Below, in pieces: positions 12,916 to 47,293 of a DNA stretch of 64,000 bases. The position numbers and the translations under genes are program-made. The DNA is from Gemmatimonadota bacterium (GTDB taxonomy: Bacteria > Gemmatimonadota > Gemmatimonadetes > Gemmatimonadales > Gemmatimonadaceae): contig PLCA01000009.1 in NCBI GenBank assembly GCA_003134685.1, forward strand, positions 62,001 through 126,000, in the 5' to 3' direction. Each line of letters starts with the position of its first letter. Position 1 is the stretch's first letter. The notes under the pieces were generated by a model. It was not told the origin of the DNA, ran no database searches, and saw only the letters and a program-made list of their open reading frames with translations.

Positions 12916-13467
12916 ATGGGCGTGGTGCACTCATTCTCCATCCGCCGCTGCACGGTCGATGATGCCGCGACGATGGCATCGCTCGGCGCGCGACTGTTCG
13001 CGGAGAGCTACGGGGAGACACATCCAGAGCCGGAGCTGAGTCGCTATCTGTCGAGATCCTTTTCGGTCGACGGCATTCGTGATGCGATCGCCGACGGGGG
13101 CGTCACCATGCTGATAGTGGAAGATCCCAAAGGAAGCGCGATCGCGTACGCGTATCTCCGCTCGAGTGCCGAACCTCCTTCAGGCGTTGCCGGGGAACGC
13201 GCGTTCGAGATCGTCCGATTCTATGTCGACGGCGTGGCCCAGGGGCGCGGAGTCGGCGCCGCGCTAATGGACAAATGCTTCGACGATGCGAAGAATCGCG
13301 GGGCCGATGTGGTCTGGCTCCAGGTCTGGAAGGAAGCGCCCTGGGCGGTCGCGTTCTATGCGCGGATGGGATTCTCCGTCGTCGGCTCGGCTCCCTTCTA
13401 CTTTGGGGATCAGGTCGGCGACGACCACATCATGGCGAAGTCACTCCGATCGGGGGCAGATAACTAA
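12916..13467 (+). CDS. GNAT-family N-acetyltransferase
   Basis: 183 residues from the ATG at 12916; the open frame extends upstream only through the tandem repeat. The acetyl-CoA pyrophosphate loop is QGRGVGAAL (about residues 113-121, Q/RxxGxG/A), preceded by beta-4 EIVRFYVDG and followed by beta-5 WLQVWKEAPWAVAFY and MGFSVVGSAPFYFG, the usual GNAT fold order. The N-terminus IRRCTVDDAATMASL matches relatives of the RimI/YhbS type. It transfers acetyl groups to an amine, with unknown substrate, in the cytoplasm. It is divergent from the susC operon and appears to be transcribed alone. Confidence 0.9.
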   Translation: MGVVHSFSIRRCTVDDAATMASLGARLFAESYGETHPEPELSRYLSRSFSVDGIRDAIADGGVTMLIVEDPKGSAIAYAYLRSSAEPPSGVAGERAFEIVRFYVDGVAQGRGVGAALMDKCFDDAKNRGADVVWLQVWKEAPWAVAFYARMGFSVVGSAPFYFGDQVGDDHIMAKSLRSGADN

Positions 13468-13495
13468 CGATCTTTTGTTTCAACAAAGAATCGTC
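13468..13495. terminator. Possible weak hairpin after GNAT gene
   Basis: An AT-rich imperfect stem (13 bp per arm, two mismatches, 2-base loop) starts at the base after the GNAT stop codon. No T-tract follows on the plus strand, so termination is uncertain. Confidence 0.35.
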
Positions 13496-13531
13496 AAAAA
13501 AGCGTGACTGCGGCCGCGAGAGAACAGTCAC

Positions 13532-18170: not shown

Positions 18171-18977
18171 CTATTTGACCTTGATCCCTTTCAGCTTGGG
18201 ATCGAGAGCGGGATAGCGAAGGTCGAGAGCGTCGAGGGTGTCGGCGATTTTGCGCGCGACCAGAAAATTGCGCGCGTCCTCGTCGTCGGCCGGCACGATG
18301 TGCCACCGCGCCCAGCTGGTGCTGCACCTGGCGATTGCATCGCGGTACGCCTTCGTGTAGTCGTCCCACAGCGCGCGATCGTCCAGATCACCAGCGCGGA
18401 ATTTCCAGTTCTTTTTTTTGTCTTCCAGTCGGTCGATGAGCCGCTTCTTCTGCTCGTCACGGGAGACGTGCAGGAAGAACTTCAGAATCACGACCGAGTT
18501 CTGAGACAGCATTTGCTCGAAGTCGTTGATCTGGTCGAACCGCTCCGACCACACTTTCTTCGGCACCAGATCGTGGACCCGCGTCACGATCACATCCTCG
18601 TAGTGCGAGCGATTGAATATTCCGATCATCCCCCGCGGGGGAACGCGCTCGTGCACGCGCCAGAGATAGTCGTGCTGCTGCTCCAGCTCCGTCGGGACCT
18701 TGAAGCTGGTGACGACGCAACCCATCGGATTAACGCCGCGAAAGACTTTCTTGATCGTCCCATCTTTCCCCGATGCATCGCGGCCCTGAAGCACGATGAG
18801 CAGCGCAAACCTTCCGTCCGCGTACAGCTTCTGTTGCAGCTTCCTGATTCGGTCCACGTGCTCCTCGGCGGCATCGTCGAGGTGCTTGTGCCTGGGGAGA
18901 CCCGTTGGCGGCGCGGCATCATTGTCGCCTAGTCGGATCTGGCGCGGGCTCGTGATGGGCTTGAGGTTGAAAGGCAC
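18171..18977 (-). CDS. ppk2: Polyphosphate kinase 2 family protein
   Basis: 268 residues, from a GTG start at 18975-18977. PPK2 enzymes transfer phosphate between polyphosphate and nucleoside mono- or diphosphates. The Walker A motif is GRDASGKDG, the Walker B region is FNRSHYEDV, and the lid region has RLIDRLEDKKKNWKF. The single PPK2 domain with the N-terminal extension PRHKHLDDAAEEHVDRIRKL fits the AMP/ADP-phosphorylating short classes. A TTGACA lies at 19006-19011 only 28 bp upstream of the start, with a poor -10, so the message might have almost no leader. It is convergent with ppc, 45 bp apart, without a clear hairpin between them. Confidence 0.93.
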   Translation of the reverse strand: MPFNLKPITSPRQIRLGDNDAAPPTGLPRHKHLDDAAEEHVDRIRKLQQKLYADGRFALLIVLQGRDASGKDGTIKKVFRGVNPMGCVVTSFKVPTELEQQHDYLWRVHERVPPRGMIGIFNRSHYEDVIVTRVHDLVPKKVWSERFDQINDFEQMLSQNSVVILKFFLHVSRDEQKKRLIDRLEDKKKNWKFRAGDLDDRALWDDYTKAYRDAIARCSTSWARWHIVPADDEDARNFLVARKIADTLDALDLRYPALDPKLKGIKVK

Positions 18978-19046
18978 GAAGCAATGTCCCCGCCGTGGCG
19001 CGGTTTGTCAAAGTCTCCAAACTGAAAACTGAACTGCAACTGAACT

Positions 19047-19224
19047 GAACGGGGTGGGAGGTGTCAGAAGCATAGTTGCCAGGCGTCAGGTCAGGACGCC
19101 CGGACTTGCCTCAGTGGCGTTCCGGCAAACGGCAGTTGCCTGTACCTGGAATTGCGTCGCGAAAAGTCACGGCGTAGTGACCTGAAAACTGGCACCTACG
19201 CCTCTGACATCTCCCACCCCGTTC
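19047..19224. mobile_element. 178-bp MITE-like element with 36-bp terminal inverted repeats
   Basis: The left end 19047-19082 (GAACGGGGTGGGAGGTGTCA and onward) and the reverse complement of the right end 19189-19224 agree at 32 of 36 positions. The interior contains smaller hairpins, such as GGCGTC/GACGCC at about 19083-19101 and GTCAC/GTGAC at about 19166-19181, and no open frame. A related end sequence occurs alone at 47259-47293. The size, the inverted ends and the second locus suggest a non-autonomous transposable element or a dispersed hairpin repeat. No transposase is in the window and I could not identify a target-site duplication. It fills most of the 333-bp gap between ppk2 and the SnoaL-like gene. 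Confidence 0.6.
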
Positions 19225-19310
19225 ATTTGTCGTTGTTATTTCCCGGTCCTCCGTCTGGCGCCCACCGATCCTTTCGCTACTATGAAGAAGACCCCACAAA
19301 AGGAGAAATC

Positions 19311-19703
19311 ATGACAACCGCGGCACCCAGCTCTACCGCCACCGCCGCCGTCGCTGAGGAGCTCGTCTCCTTCTGCAGGGCCGGGAACTTCATGGGAGCG
19401 ATCGAGAACCTTTACTCCTCGGACATCGTCAGCATCGAATCGATGGGCAACGAGACGATGCCACGCGAAATGAAGGGAATTGACGCGATTCGGGGAAAGA
19501 ACCAATGGTGGGCCGAGAACCACGAGGTCAATTCCTCGGTCGTCGATGGACCTTTCGTCGGCGAGGATAAGTTCGCCGTCTACTACAACCTCGACGTGAC
19601 GTTCAAGCCGACCGGGAAGCGCACCACCATGGAAGAAATGGCGCTCTACGAAGTGAAGAACGGGAAGATCGTGCGCGAGCACTTCTTCTATAGGACGTCA
19701 TAG
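19311..19703 (+). CDS. SnoaL-like (NTF2-fold) protein
   Basis: 130 residues from the ATG at 19311, five bases after AAAAGGAG; the open frame upstream runs into the inverted-repeat element. The sequence has the NTF2/SnoaL cone-fold pattern: N-terminal helix (AVAEELVSFCRAGNFMGAIE), then LYSSDIVSIES, the conserved GIDAIRGKNQWWAENHEV and a final strand pair VKNGKIVREHFFYR. Related proteins are small ligand-binding or isomerase-like proteins of unknown substrate. The stop TAG (19701-19703) lies within a 10-bp tandem duplication and is in the same frame as the following helicase gene. Confidence 0.85.
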   Translation: MTTAAPSSTATAAVAEELVSFCRAGNFMGAIENLYSSDIVSIESMGNETMPREMKGIDAIRGKNQWWAENHEVNSSVVDGPFVGEDKFAVYYNLDVTFKPTGKRTTMEEMALYEVKNGKIVREHFFYRTS

Positions 19704-46027: not shown

Positions 46028-47230
46028 GTGCCGCAACGATCAACCGGGCATTGTGTGAGGCATCTATTTGTAACGCAGGATTACGCTCCGGATCTGGGCG
46101 GCATGGCGCGCCGCCACGTCGAGCTCTGTCGGCGCTTCGCCAATGGTGACTCGACCATCGAAGTATCGACGATCAGCGCGAAGGGTGCCGACGCGTTCGA
46201 TTCATCCGAGCCGTACGCGATCAATCGACAGCCTTTTCCGTTTTCGAAAGCCAAGGTCTTCACGAATCAGCTACGATGGGGGCGATGGCTGTCTGCCCGT
46301 GCGGCGACGGACATCGACGTGCTGCATTGTGGCAACATCAGACCGGTCGGCTACGCGGTGCTTCTCGCTCATCTGAGGCGGCGTGTCCCCTACCTCGTTT
46401 ACGTGAACGGCGGCGATCTGCTCAAGGAGCAGGCCGGCATTGGGGCGAGCGCTCGCAAGCGGTTCGGCGCGCGCCACATCCTCGGCTCGGCAAGCGGGAT
46501 AGTCGCGACCTCGGCGTGGGTTGCCGGATTGGCCGCCGACGTCATGGGCCGCCTCGGGATCGGGCGAATTCCGCCAATCGGAACTTTCGGTCTCGGCACG
46601 GATCCGGATTTCTTTCGTCCGGGGCGCGATACCGGCAAGCTCCGAGCGAAGTGGGCGATAGGAGATGCGCCGCTCCTGCTCACCGTGGCGCGTCTCATTC
46701 CGCACAAGGGACAGGATGTCGTGCTGCGCGCGCTGGCGTCGTTGACGACGGAGTATCCGACACTTCGTTACGCGATGATCGGCACCGGCCCCGACGAGCC
46801 GCGCCTTCGAACGCTCGCCGGCGATCTCAAAGTTTCCGACCGGGTGATTTTCGCGGGGGCATTATCCGACGATGAAGTGGCTGAGGCTTACGCGACGTCG
46901 ACGGTTTACCTCGGACTTTCGCGACTTGACGGGAGGATCGACGCCGAGGGATTCGGCATCTCATTTCTCGAAGCAGCCGCCTCCGGTGTGCCGATCATTG
47001 CCGGCGACTCCGGCGGGGTTCGCTCGGCCGTCCGCGATGGCGAGAGCGGAGTAATTCTGGCGCCCCAGGACGTGACCGCCGTGGTCGAGGCGCTGCGGAT
47101 GTACCTAGCCGATGCGGAACGGCGGGCGAGTACGGGGAAGATTGGCCGCGCGCTGGTCGAGACGTACTACAACTGGGATCGGGTGGCCCGCGAGACGCGG
47201 AACTTTACGTACGAGGTCGTGAAGCGGTGA
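46028..47230 (+). CDS. GT4-family glycosyltransferase
   Basis: 400 residues, GTG start at 46028 or 46055. GT-B fold: the N-terminal domain has TQDYAPDLGGMARRHVELCR, the acceptor-side pattern of GT4 enzymes, and VNGGDLLKEQAGIGASARKR. The C-terminal donor domain has LLTVARLIPHKGQDVVLRAL, YAMIGTGPDEPRLR, DRVIFAGALSDDEVAEAYAT and the nucleotide-sugar signature EGFGISFLEAAASGVPIIAG with the two conserved glutamates. It transfers a sugar from a nucleotide donor with retention of configuration, probably during lipopolysaccharide or exopolysaccharide synthesis. It pairs with the upstream methyltransferase. Confidence 0.94.
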   Translation: MPQRSTGHCVRHLFVTQDYAPDLGGMARRHVELCRRFANGDSTIEVSTISAKGADAFDSSEPYAINRQPFPFSKAKVFTNQLRWGRWLSARAATDIDVLHCGNIRPVGYAVLLAHLRRRVPYLVYVNGGDLLKEQAGIGASARKRFGARHILGSASGIVATSAWVAGLAADVMGRLGIGRIPPIGTFGLGTDPDFFRPGRDTGKLRAKWAIGDAPLLLTVARLIPHKGQDVVLRALASLTTEYPTLRYAMIGTGPDEPRLRTLAGDLKVSDRVIFAGALSDDEVAEAYATSTVYLGLSRLDGRIDAEGFGISFLEAAASGVPIIAGDSGGVRSAVRDGESGVILAPQDVTAVVEALRMYLADAERRASTGKIGRALVETYYNWDRVARETRNFTYEVVKR

Positions 47231-47258
47231 GCGCGGCTCGTGCCTCATCTCCTGAGAA

Positions 47259-47293
47259 CTGGCAACTAAGCCTCTGACACCTCCGACCCAGTC
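47259..47293 (+). repeat. Solo copy of the terminal repeat of the 178-bp element
   Basis: CTGGCAACTAAGCCTCTGAC and onward match the right terminal repeat of the element at 19189-19224 with about six differences in 35 bases; a further 20 bp downstream is also similar (TTTGTTGTCGTCCTCTT). No partner inverted end is found nearby. Confidence 0.6.

Follow-up and report, generated by a model that had tools for sequence, protein, structure and literature searches.

What is the near-palindrome at positions 19047-19224 of the window, by which we mean the whole 64,000-nucleotide stretch of a Gemmatimonadaceae contig (PLCA01000009.1) that was analysed, and how might it have come to lie there? A first-pass annotation, made from the letters alone, had described a gene-less element with inverted ends of 36 bp and a related end 28 kb away, and had left the choice between a family of non-autonomous mobile elements and a structured RNA repeat specific to the lineage. 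Read directly from the sequence, 32 of the 36 end positions match the reverse complement of the opposite end, and the element indeed has no coding capacity, a single ORF for an intervening sequence protein (IVP, see below) being seen only in longer units that share these arms. The symmetry extends further than first noted, with arms of 65 nt that are 82% complementary around a spacer of 56 nt, such that the near-palindrome spans almost the entire element. The features on which we rely are as follows.

19047-19224, no strand assigned: gene-less near-palindromic element of family A, recognised by its inverted repeat, blastn copies, fold and covariance model
19043-19107, plus strand: left arm of the inverted repeat, corresponding to the end of IVP unit L071/L014 on the 3' side of the ORF
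19164-19228, plus strand: right arm, reverse-complementary to the left arm, corresponding to the IVP unit end on the 5' side of the ORF
19020-19046, plus strand: tail of AACTG(CA) units on the outer side, representing the terminal repeat as it occurs in the genus
47239-47293, minus strand: half of an element, truncated, flanked by a glycosyltransferase gene and a convergent ORF
18171-18977, minus strand: flanking gene for polyphosphate kinase 2 (PPK2), with 70 bp separating its start from the element
19311-19703, plus strand: flanking SnoaL-like gene
13437-13502, no strand assigned: intergenic stretch without an insert, orthologous to an IVP-unit site in genome G011

The element occupies the intergenic stretch from which PPK2 (minus) and the SnoaL-like gene (plus) diverge, and an exact ACTGCAACTGAAC lies at 19033-19045 in its outer tail. 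Folding, which had been suggested as a check, gave -115.3 kcal/mol, with none of 200 dinucleotide shuffles as stable (z -10.7). The related end was recovered by covariance model R1 at 47210-47293 (E 0.00095), with blastn aligning 54 bp at 78% between the window element and the relative at 47239-47293, a half element that directly follows the glycosyltransferase gene. The window element is real, and beyond chance.

A hairpin family in the genome and genus

The suspicion that the symmetry might be local, with no further copies in the genome, was not borne out, as copies are plentiful both in the element's own genome and in its genus. Searching the own genome (3.63 Mb in 16 contigs, 98.4% complete) by blastn with the window element returned 57 matches, both strands counted, with full-length copies at 69-82% identity, and R1, a covariance model built from 27 copies, gave 116 strand-hits there and matched 15 of the 19 genus genomes. 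Across 99 relatives, own genome included, blastn found matches in 11, with 10 of these 11 inside the genus. Numerous hairpin copies are common to several species, so much of the family is old. Short, multicopy, non-coding and bounded by inverted ends, the window family shows each of these four traits of MITEs.

Two subfamilies, A (GGGCGGGAGGCGTC) and B (GGATCCGAGATCTG), have stems that differ in sequence, with complementarity kept in both. Two-sided changes were found in 11 of 31 stem pairs (4.3 in shuffles, 1-4 in slid controls), and this pattern shows a hairpin evidently maintained by paired changes. While 96.6% of the alignment cells are paired in the stem, this share is favoured by construction because the structure was derived from the same alignment, and the two-sided changes are the stronger point. 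Of 54 element ends, 30 have an AACTGCA-like tail within the adjoining 25 nt on the outer side; the figure for control stretches is 2 of 54.

Longer units encoding an intervening sequence protein

At C12:645 kb, a gap of 600 bp separates the two halves of a family-A element, and the single ORF in this gap matches PF05635, the 23S rRNA intervening sequence protein (S23/IVP), as well as TIGR02436, four helix bundle protein. Evaluating all PF05635 genes in the own genome, we found seven, one of them split across two frames; all seven are flanked by inverted arms of 52-89 bp, and the arms of three match the short families A or B. The window element and IVP unit L071 share 153 of 178 positions in a loose alignment with free gaps. 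A PF05635 gene is present in 17 of the 19 genus genomes, and an inverted-arm score of at least 21 was reached by 47 of 49 genus IVP loci vs 1 of 340 shifted controls. The arm and heptad tests need flanks of 350 bp on each side, for which 49 of the 55 placed genus loci were long enough, and 16 of the 72 genus PF05635 match rows, mostly fragments and weak matches, were left out. Values of dN/dS of 0.08-0.15 for IVP (three orthologous pairs at two shared sites), together with the absence of any in-frame stop within the aligned part of 55 IVP loci, show a protein evidently under purifying selection. As a side observation, loci L089, L120 and L121 belong to a lower-scoring PF05635 subgroup and have excellent inverted arms (118 of 123 for L089), those of L089 and L121 being built from ACTGCGG-type heptads.

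A second arm family, with arms taken from L068, comprises 28 convergent inverted pairs, 23 of them short and gene-less (118-289 bp) and five long (498-631 bp); PF05635 was found in all five long units, and no other gene in any of them. The ends of the hairpins are hence common to a longer protein-coding unit, as is expected of MITEs, its product being IVP and not a recognised transposase. An S23/IVP ORF between complementary ends, as in the intervening sequences (IVSs) of 23S rRNA genes, is found in the long units, the window element itself being gene-less. We consider it very probable, on these comparisons of sequence, that the window element is an internally deleted, MITE-like derivative of a mobile IVP unit.

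Distant IVP loci, drawn from the best 80 relatives and spread over many phyla, have an IVP gene with arrays of degenerate 7-nt repeats in inverted orientation on its two sides, frequently of the type AGCNNTC. Periodicity appears at lags 7 and 14, with the remaining lags near control level except for a small rise at lag 8 in the distant set (6.7 vs 4.2), and arrays have a median length of 5.1 units (quartiles 4.4-7.8). Of the 45 distant loci, 34 exceeded the control 95th percentile for both heptads and inverted arms, as did all 12 plasmid loci, compared with 2 of 290 controls, the 95th percentile being chosen because some shifted controls fall on real arrays and raise the 99th; three distant loci (L155, L162, L169) carry neither the heptad nor the arm signal. 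Within the genus, 16 of 49 loci exceed the control 95th percentile for heptads and all 49 pass the arm part of the same test, and the heptad signal is weaker there than in distant loci. The tallies omit L122-L150, which duplicate loci of the genus or are close kin, and the distant tallies also omit the Gemmatimonads loci L153, L175 and L200 from the wobble count onward (see below), L153 and L200 being included among the 47 distant loci of the inverted-arm score test. Lineage specificity, part of the earlier proposal, applies to these arm sequences (11 of 99 relatives, 10 in the genus) but not to the kind of unit, which recurs across phyla. Assessing rRNA location, we found no Rfam match in the 20 distant loci checked; L313 (Azospirillum lipoferum) holds an IVP unit that lies within a 23S rRNA gene and shows the same inverted heptads, and it is the only one among the loci checked to lie inside such a gene, the window element lying elsewhere.

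Presence, absence and mobility

Closely related cyanobacterial plasmids allow presence and absence to be compared. Plasmid C of Trichormus variabilis (L306) carries an IVP insert of 428 bp with an exact empty site in the Nostoc linckia and Tolypothrix plasmids (L315 and L316), which are without the 428-bp unit at the same site. This insert starts and stops at heptad arrays and is flanked twice by GTAAT, a 5-bp target duplication, and as such it shows the arrays to be, as far as sequence can tell, the ends of the unit. A split match around the Trichormus unit was seen in six records among the matches listed (H74-H79), two of which were aligned. In Nostoc C052 pD (L307), an insert of 417 bp, with an imperfect ATTCT repeat, has an exact empty site in L318 and L319. 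A unit of 416-419 bp is the main stretch common to L305, L306 and L307, with flanks that differ, and four further plasmid records match L307 in the unit only, their flanks being different.

Closer to the window, genome G000 has 294 bp comprising an element and stuttered ends where G014 is contiguous, giving an empty site within the genus. Target duplications, which the first pass had suggested looking for, are represented by GTAAT at the plasmid IVP unit, whereas by eye none is clean at this G014/G000 site. Genome G002 has an element at C8:8949 that is absent from G000, and in G011 (contig C61, L120) an IVP unit lies between flanks orthologous to the surroundings of 13437-13502 in the window, the junction not being exact because the intergenic bases themselves do not align. 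Taken as comparisons between sequences, these cases make movement of the units well supported.

Several other candidates were rejected as empty sites. Other indels in the 20-kb comparison that gave the G014/G000 site were not elements; for L310/L317 the spot holds another hairpin; for L309/L320 the best duplication was only TTAG; L321 retains part of an IVP unit; and for the 20-kb query L266 the IVP unit lies in a stretch unmatched in four relatives. In the L266 comparison, contigs of G014 break at the hairpin.

Two accounts differ from ours. Regulatory or terminator hairpins that do not move, and that were multiplied by ordinary duplication, would have the very stable fold and the intergenic site seen in the window, but exact empty sites and the presence of one unit in different plasmid backbones argue against this account, and a terminator is ill suited to the divergent-promoter position of the window element; we regard it as extremely unlikely. 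Use of single hairpin copies by the host is possible. The second account has an unrelated transposase (e.g., of the DDE type) acting on both IVP units and hairpins, whose own part would be passive, with IVP as a passenger or regulator. A target duplication of about 5 bp is ordinary for DDE transposases, and the one plasmid case fits with that, as do genomes with hairpins and no IVP match: many hairpins and no PF05635 match were found in G002 (93% complete), and second-family arms and no PF05635 match in G010 (68% complete). Set against these points are the second arm family, in which five of five long units hold IVP and none another gene, and the retention of IVP between repeat-bounded arms in distant phyla, such that we judge a passive role unlikely, though not negligibly so. 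Overall, we hold as probable our own account, in which the window element is a MITE-like derivative of an IVP-only mobile unit whose movement IVP may assist.

Relation to known systems and possible mechanism

IVSs that carry S23p, MITEs, and arrays of heptanucleotides had each been described before. Like the TAACTGA arrays of Beggiatoaceae, the arrays here consist of short 7-nt direct repeats scattered over phyla, and the STRR of cyanobacteria are presumably comparable to them as well. For heptanucleotide arrays, PMC4679880 reports that how they spread is not evident; in contrast to the arrays of that paper, those described here are inverted around an IVP gene, and S23 has no occurrence in that text. 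The 23S IVSs with an S23p ORF (Coxiella, Leptospira), as described in excerpts of PMC4990558, are likewise stem-loops of about 430 bp with complementary ends and one S23/PF05635 ORF, and the Coxiella IVS has tandem heptamers ahead of the S23p ORF; the same excerpts state that IVS function and origin remain unclear. Unlike 23S IVSs, the IVP units here lie outside rRNA genes, occur several per genome and have gene-less derivatives. The window family resembles MITEs in being short, gene-less, multicopy, bounded by inverted ends and related to a longer unit with the same ends, and differs from them in that the longer unit is without a recognised transposase, the palindrome runs through the entire element, and the empty site of this genus has no clean target duplication. 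Searches of open-licence PMC papers returned none that connects S23/IVP genes to inverted heptad arrays or to gene-less derivatives, nor any that unites IVSs, MITEs and heptanucleotide arrays in one dispersed mobile unit. IVP units occur among many bacterial phyla, often bounded by inverted heptad arrays, and may explain the movement of IVSs.

Two enzyme classes could be weighed as movers through the gene content of the genus. REP, BIME and REPIN elements, mobilised by a Y1 transposase (RAYT), are like the window family palindromic, intergenic and multicopy, but the window family is much longer, and Y1_Tnp (PF01797) was not found in the own genome (98.4% complete) and is present in 3 of 19 genus genomes; of the readings weighed, we find this one the least credible. 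Retro-mobility, in which IVP would work with a reverse transcriptase on hairpin RNA as its homologue Avd does, draws on the relation of PF05635 to the Avd of diversity-generating retroelements, as given in excerpts of PMC10053308. Unlike those systems, the own genome has no reverse transcriptase (RVT_1, PF00078), which is present in 3 of 19 genus genomes, and the arms of IVP units show no single-strand wobble bias, with 128 GU vs 145 AC mismatches in the genus and 70 GU vs 67 AC in distant loci; we regard retro-mobility as very unlikely. An RNA hairpin in place of a DNA one was rejected on the same lack of strand wobble bias in the IVP-unit arms. The short hairpins gave 155 GU vs 88 AC, a bias inseparable from shared ancestry because the copies share ancestry. 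No Rfam match above gathering score was found in the window, and of the two natures first proposed the non-autonomous, MITE-like family stood, whereas the structured RNA, with no Rfam match and no strand bias in the IVP-unit arms, was not supported.

Returning to a MITE-like derivative of an IVP unit, we lean towards IVP itself taking part in the mobility of its own unit. The ends (heptad arrays, or here the AACTGCA tails and long stem) would be recognised by the mobility machinery as a hairpin or repeat, with IVP binding them and acting in trans on gene-less copies, and the host may supply the activity that cuts and joins; we know of no nuclease fold that can be named for IVP. Solved relatives of IVP (2gsc, 2rld) are both uncharacterised, and for a solved relative a ring of five four-helix bundles is reported. 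A median array of 5.1 units is compatible with five sites, and is no proof of them. A bolder and, in our estimate, doubtful version would make IVP/S23 itself the mobility protein of pan-bacterial minimal elements with no classical transposase, its ring reading tandem heptads as single strands or hairpins, one per subunit. A single system would then comprise 23S IVSs, dispersed IVP units, the MITE-like hairpins and some of the scattered bacterial heptanucleotide repeats. Three puzzles meet here, namely the movement of IVSs, the function of the S23 four-helix bundle and the scatter of heptanucleotide arrays over phyla. Should a single mobile unit account for them all, each would be testable in cultured cyanobacteria with a plasmid assay, and should IVP be the mover, DNA would be moved here by a protein with no known transposase fold.

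Lastly, the ends of the elements and their neighbours show further structure. A truncated copy of the element's own end lies beside 7 of 30 elements, scoring above all 60 control stretches, and truncated tandem copies of the terminal 20-30 nt were seen beside a full element in L070 (1271-1392), L036, L016 and L008. At the window site, a family-B hairpin replaces family A in G014:C164 (L258) and G002:C54 (L259), and a similar hairpin swap is seen at L223/L060. Hairpin swaps and truncated end copies suggest that old ends were inserted into more than once, or that stuttering occurred, and the truncated tandem copies in particular could be traces of stuttering or nested insertion. Among neighbours, cas6 and cas4 of Anabaena sp. 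90 (L310) have an IVP unit between them, at a spot where Dolichospermum (L317) has a different hairpin, and IVP genes between cas genes were also seen in L304 and L308. Tandem repeats of 10 bp (AACTGAATGG) lie at about 8880-8948 of L263 (G002:C8), directly outside the hairpin that is absent from G000.
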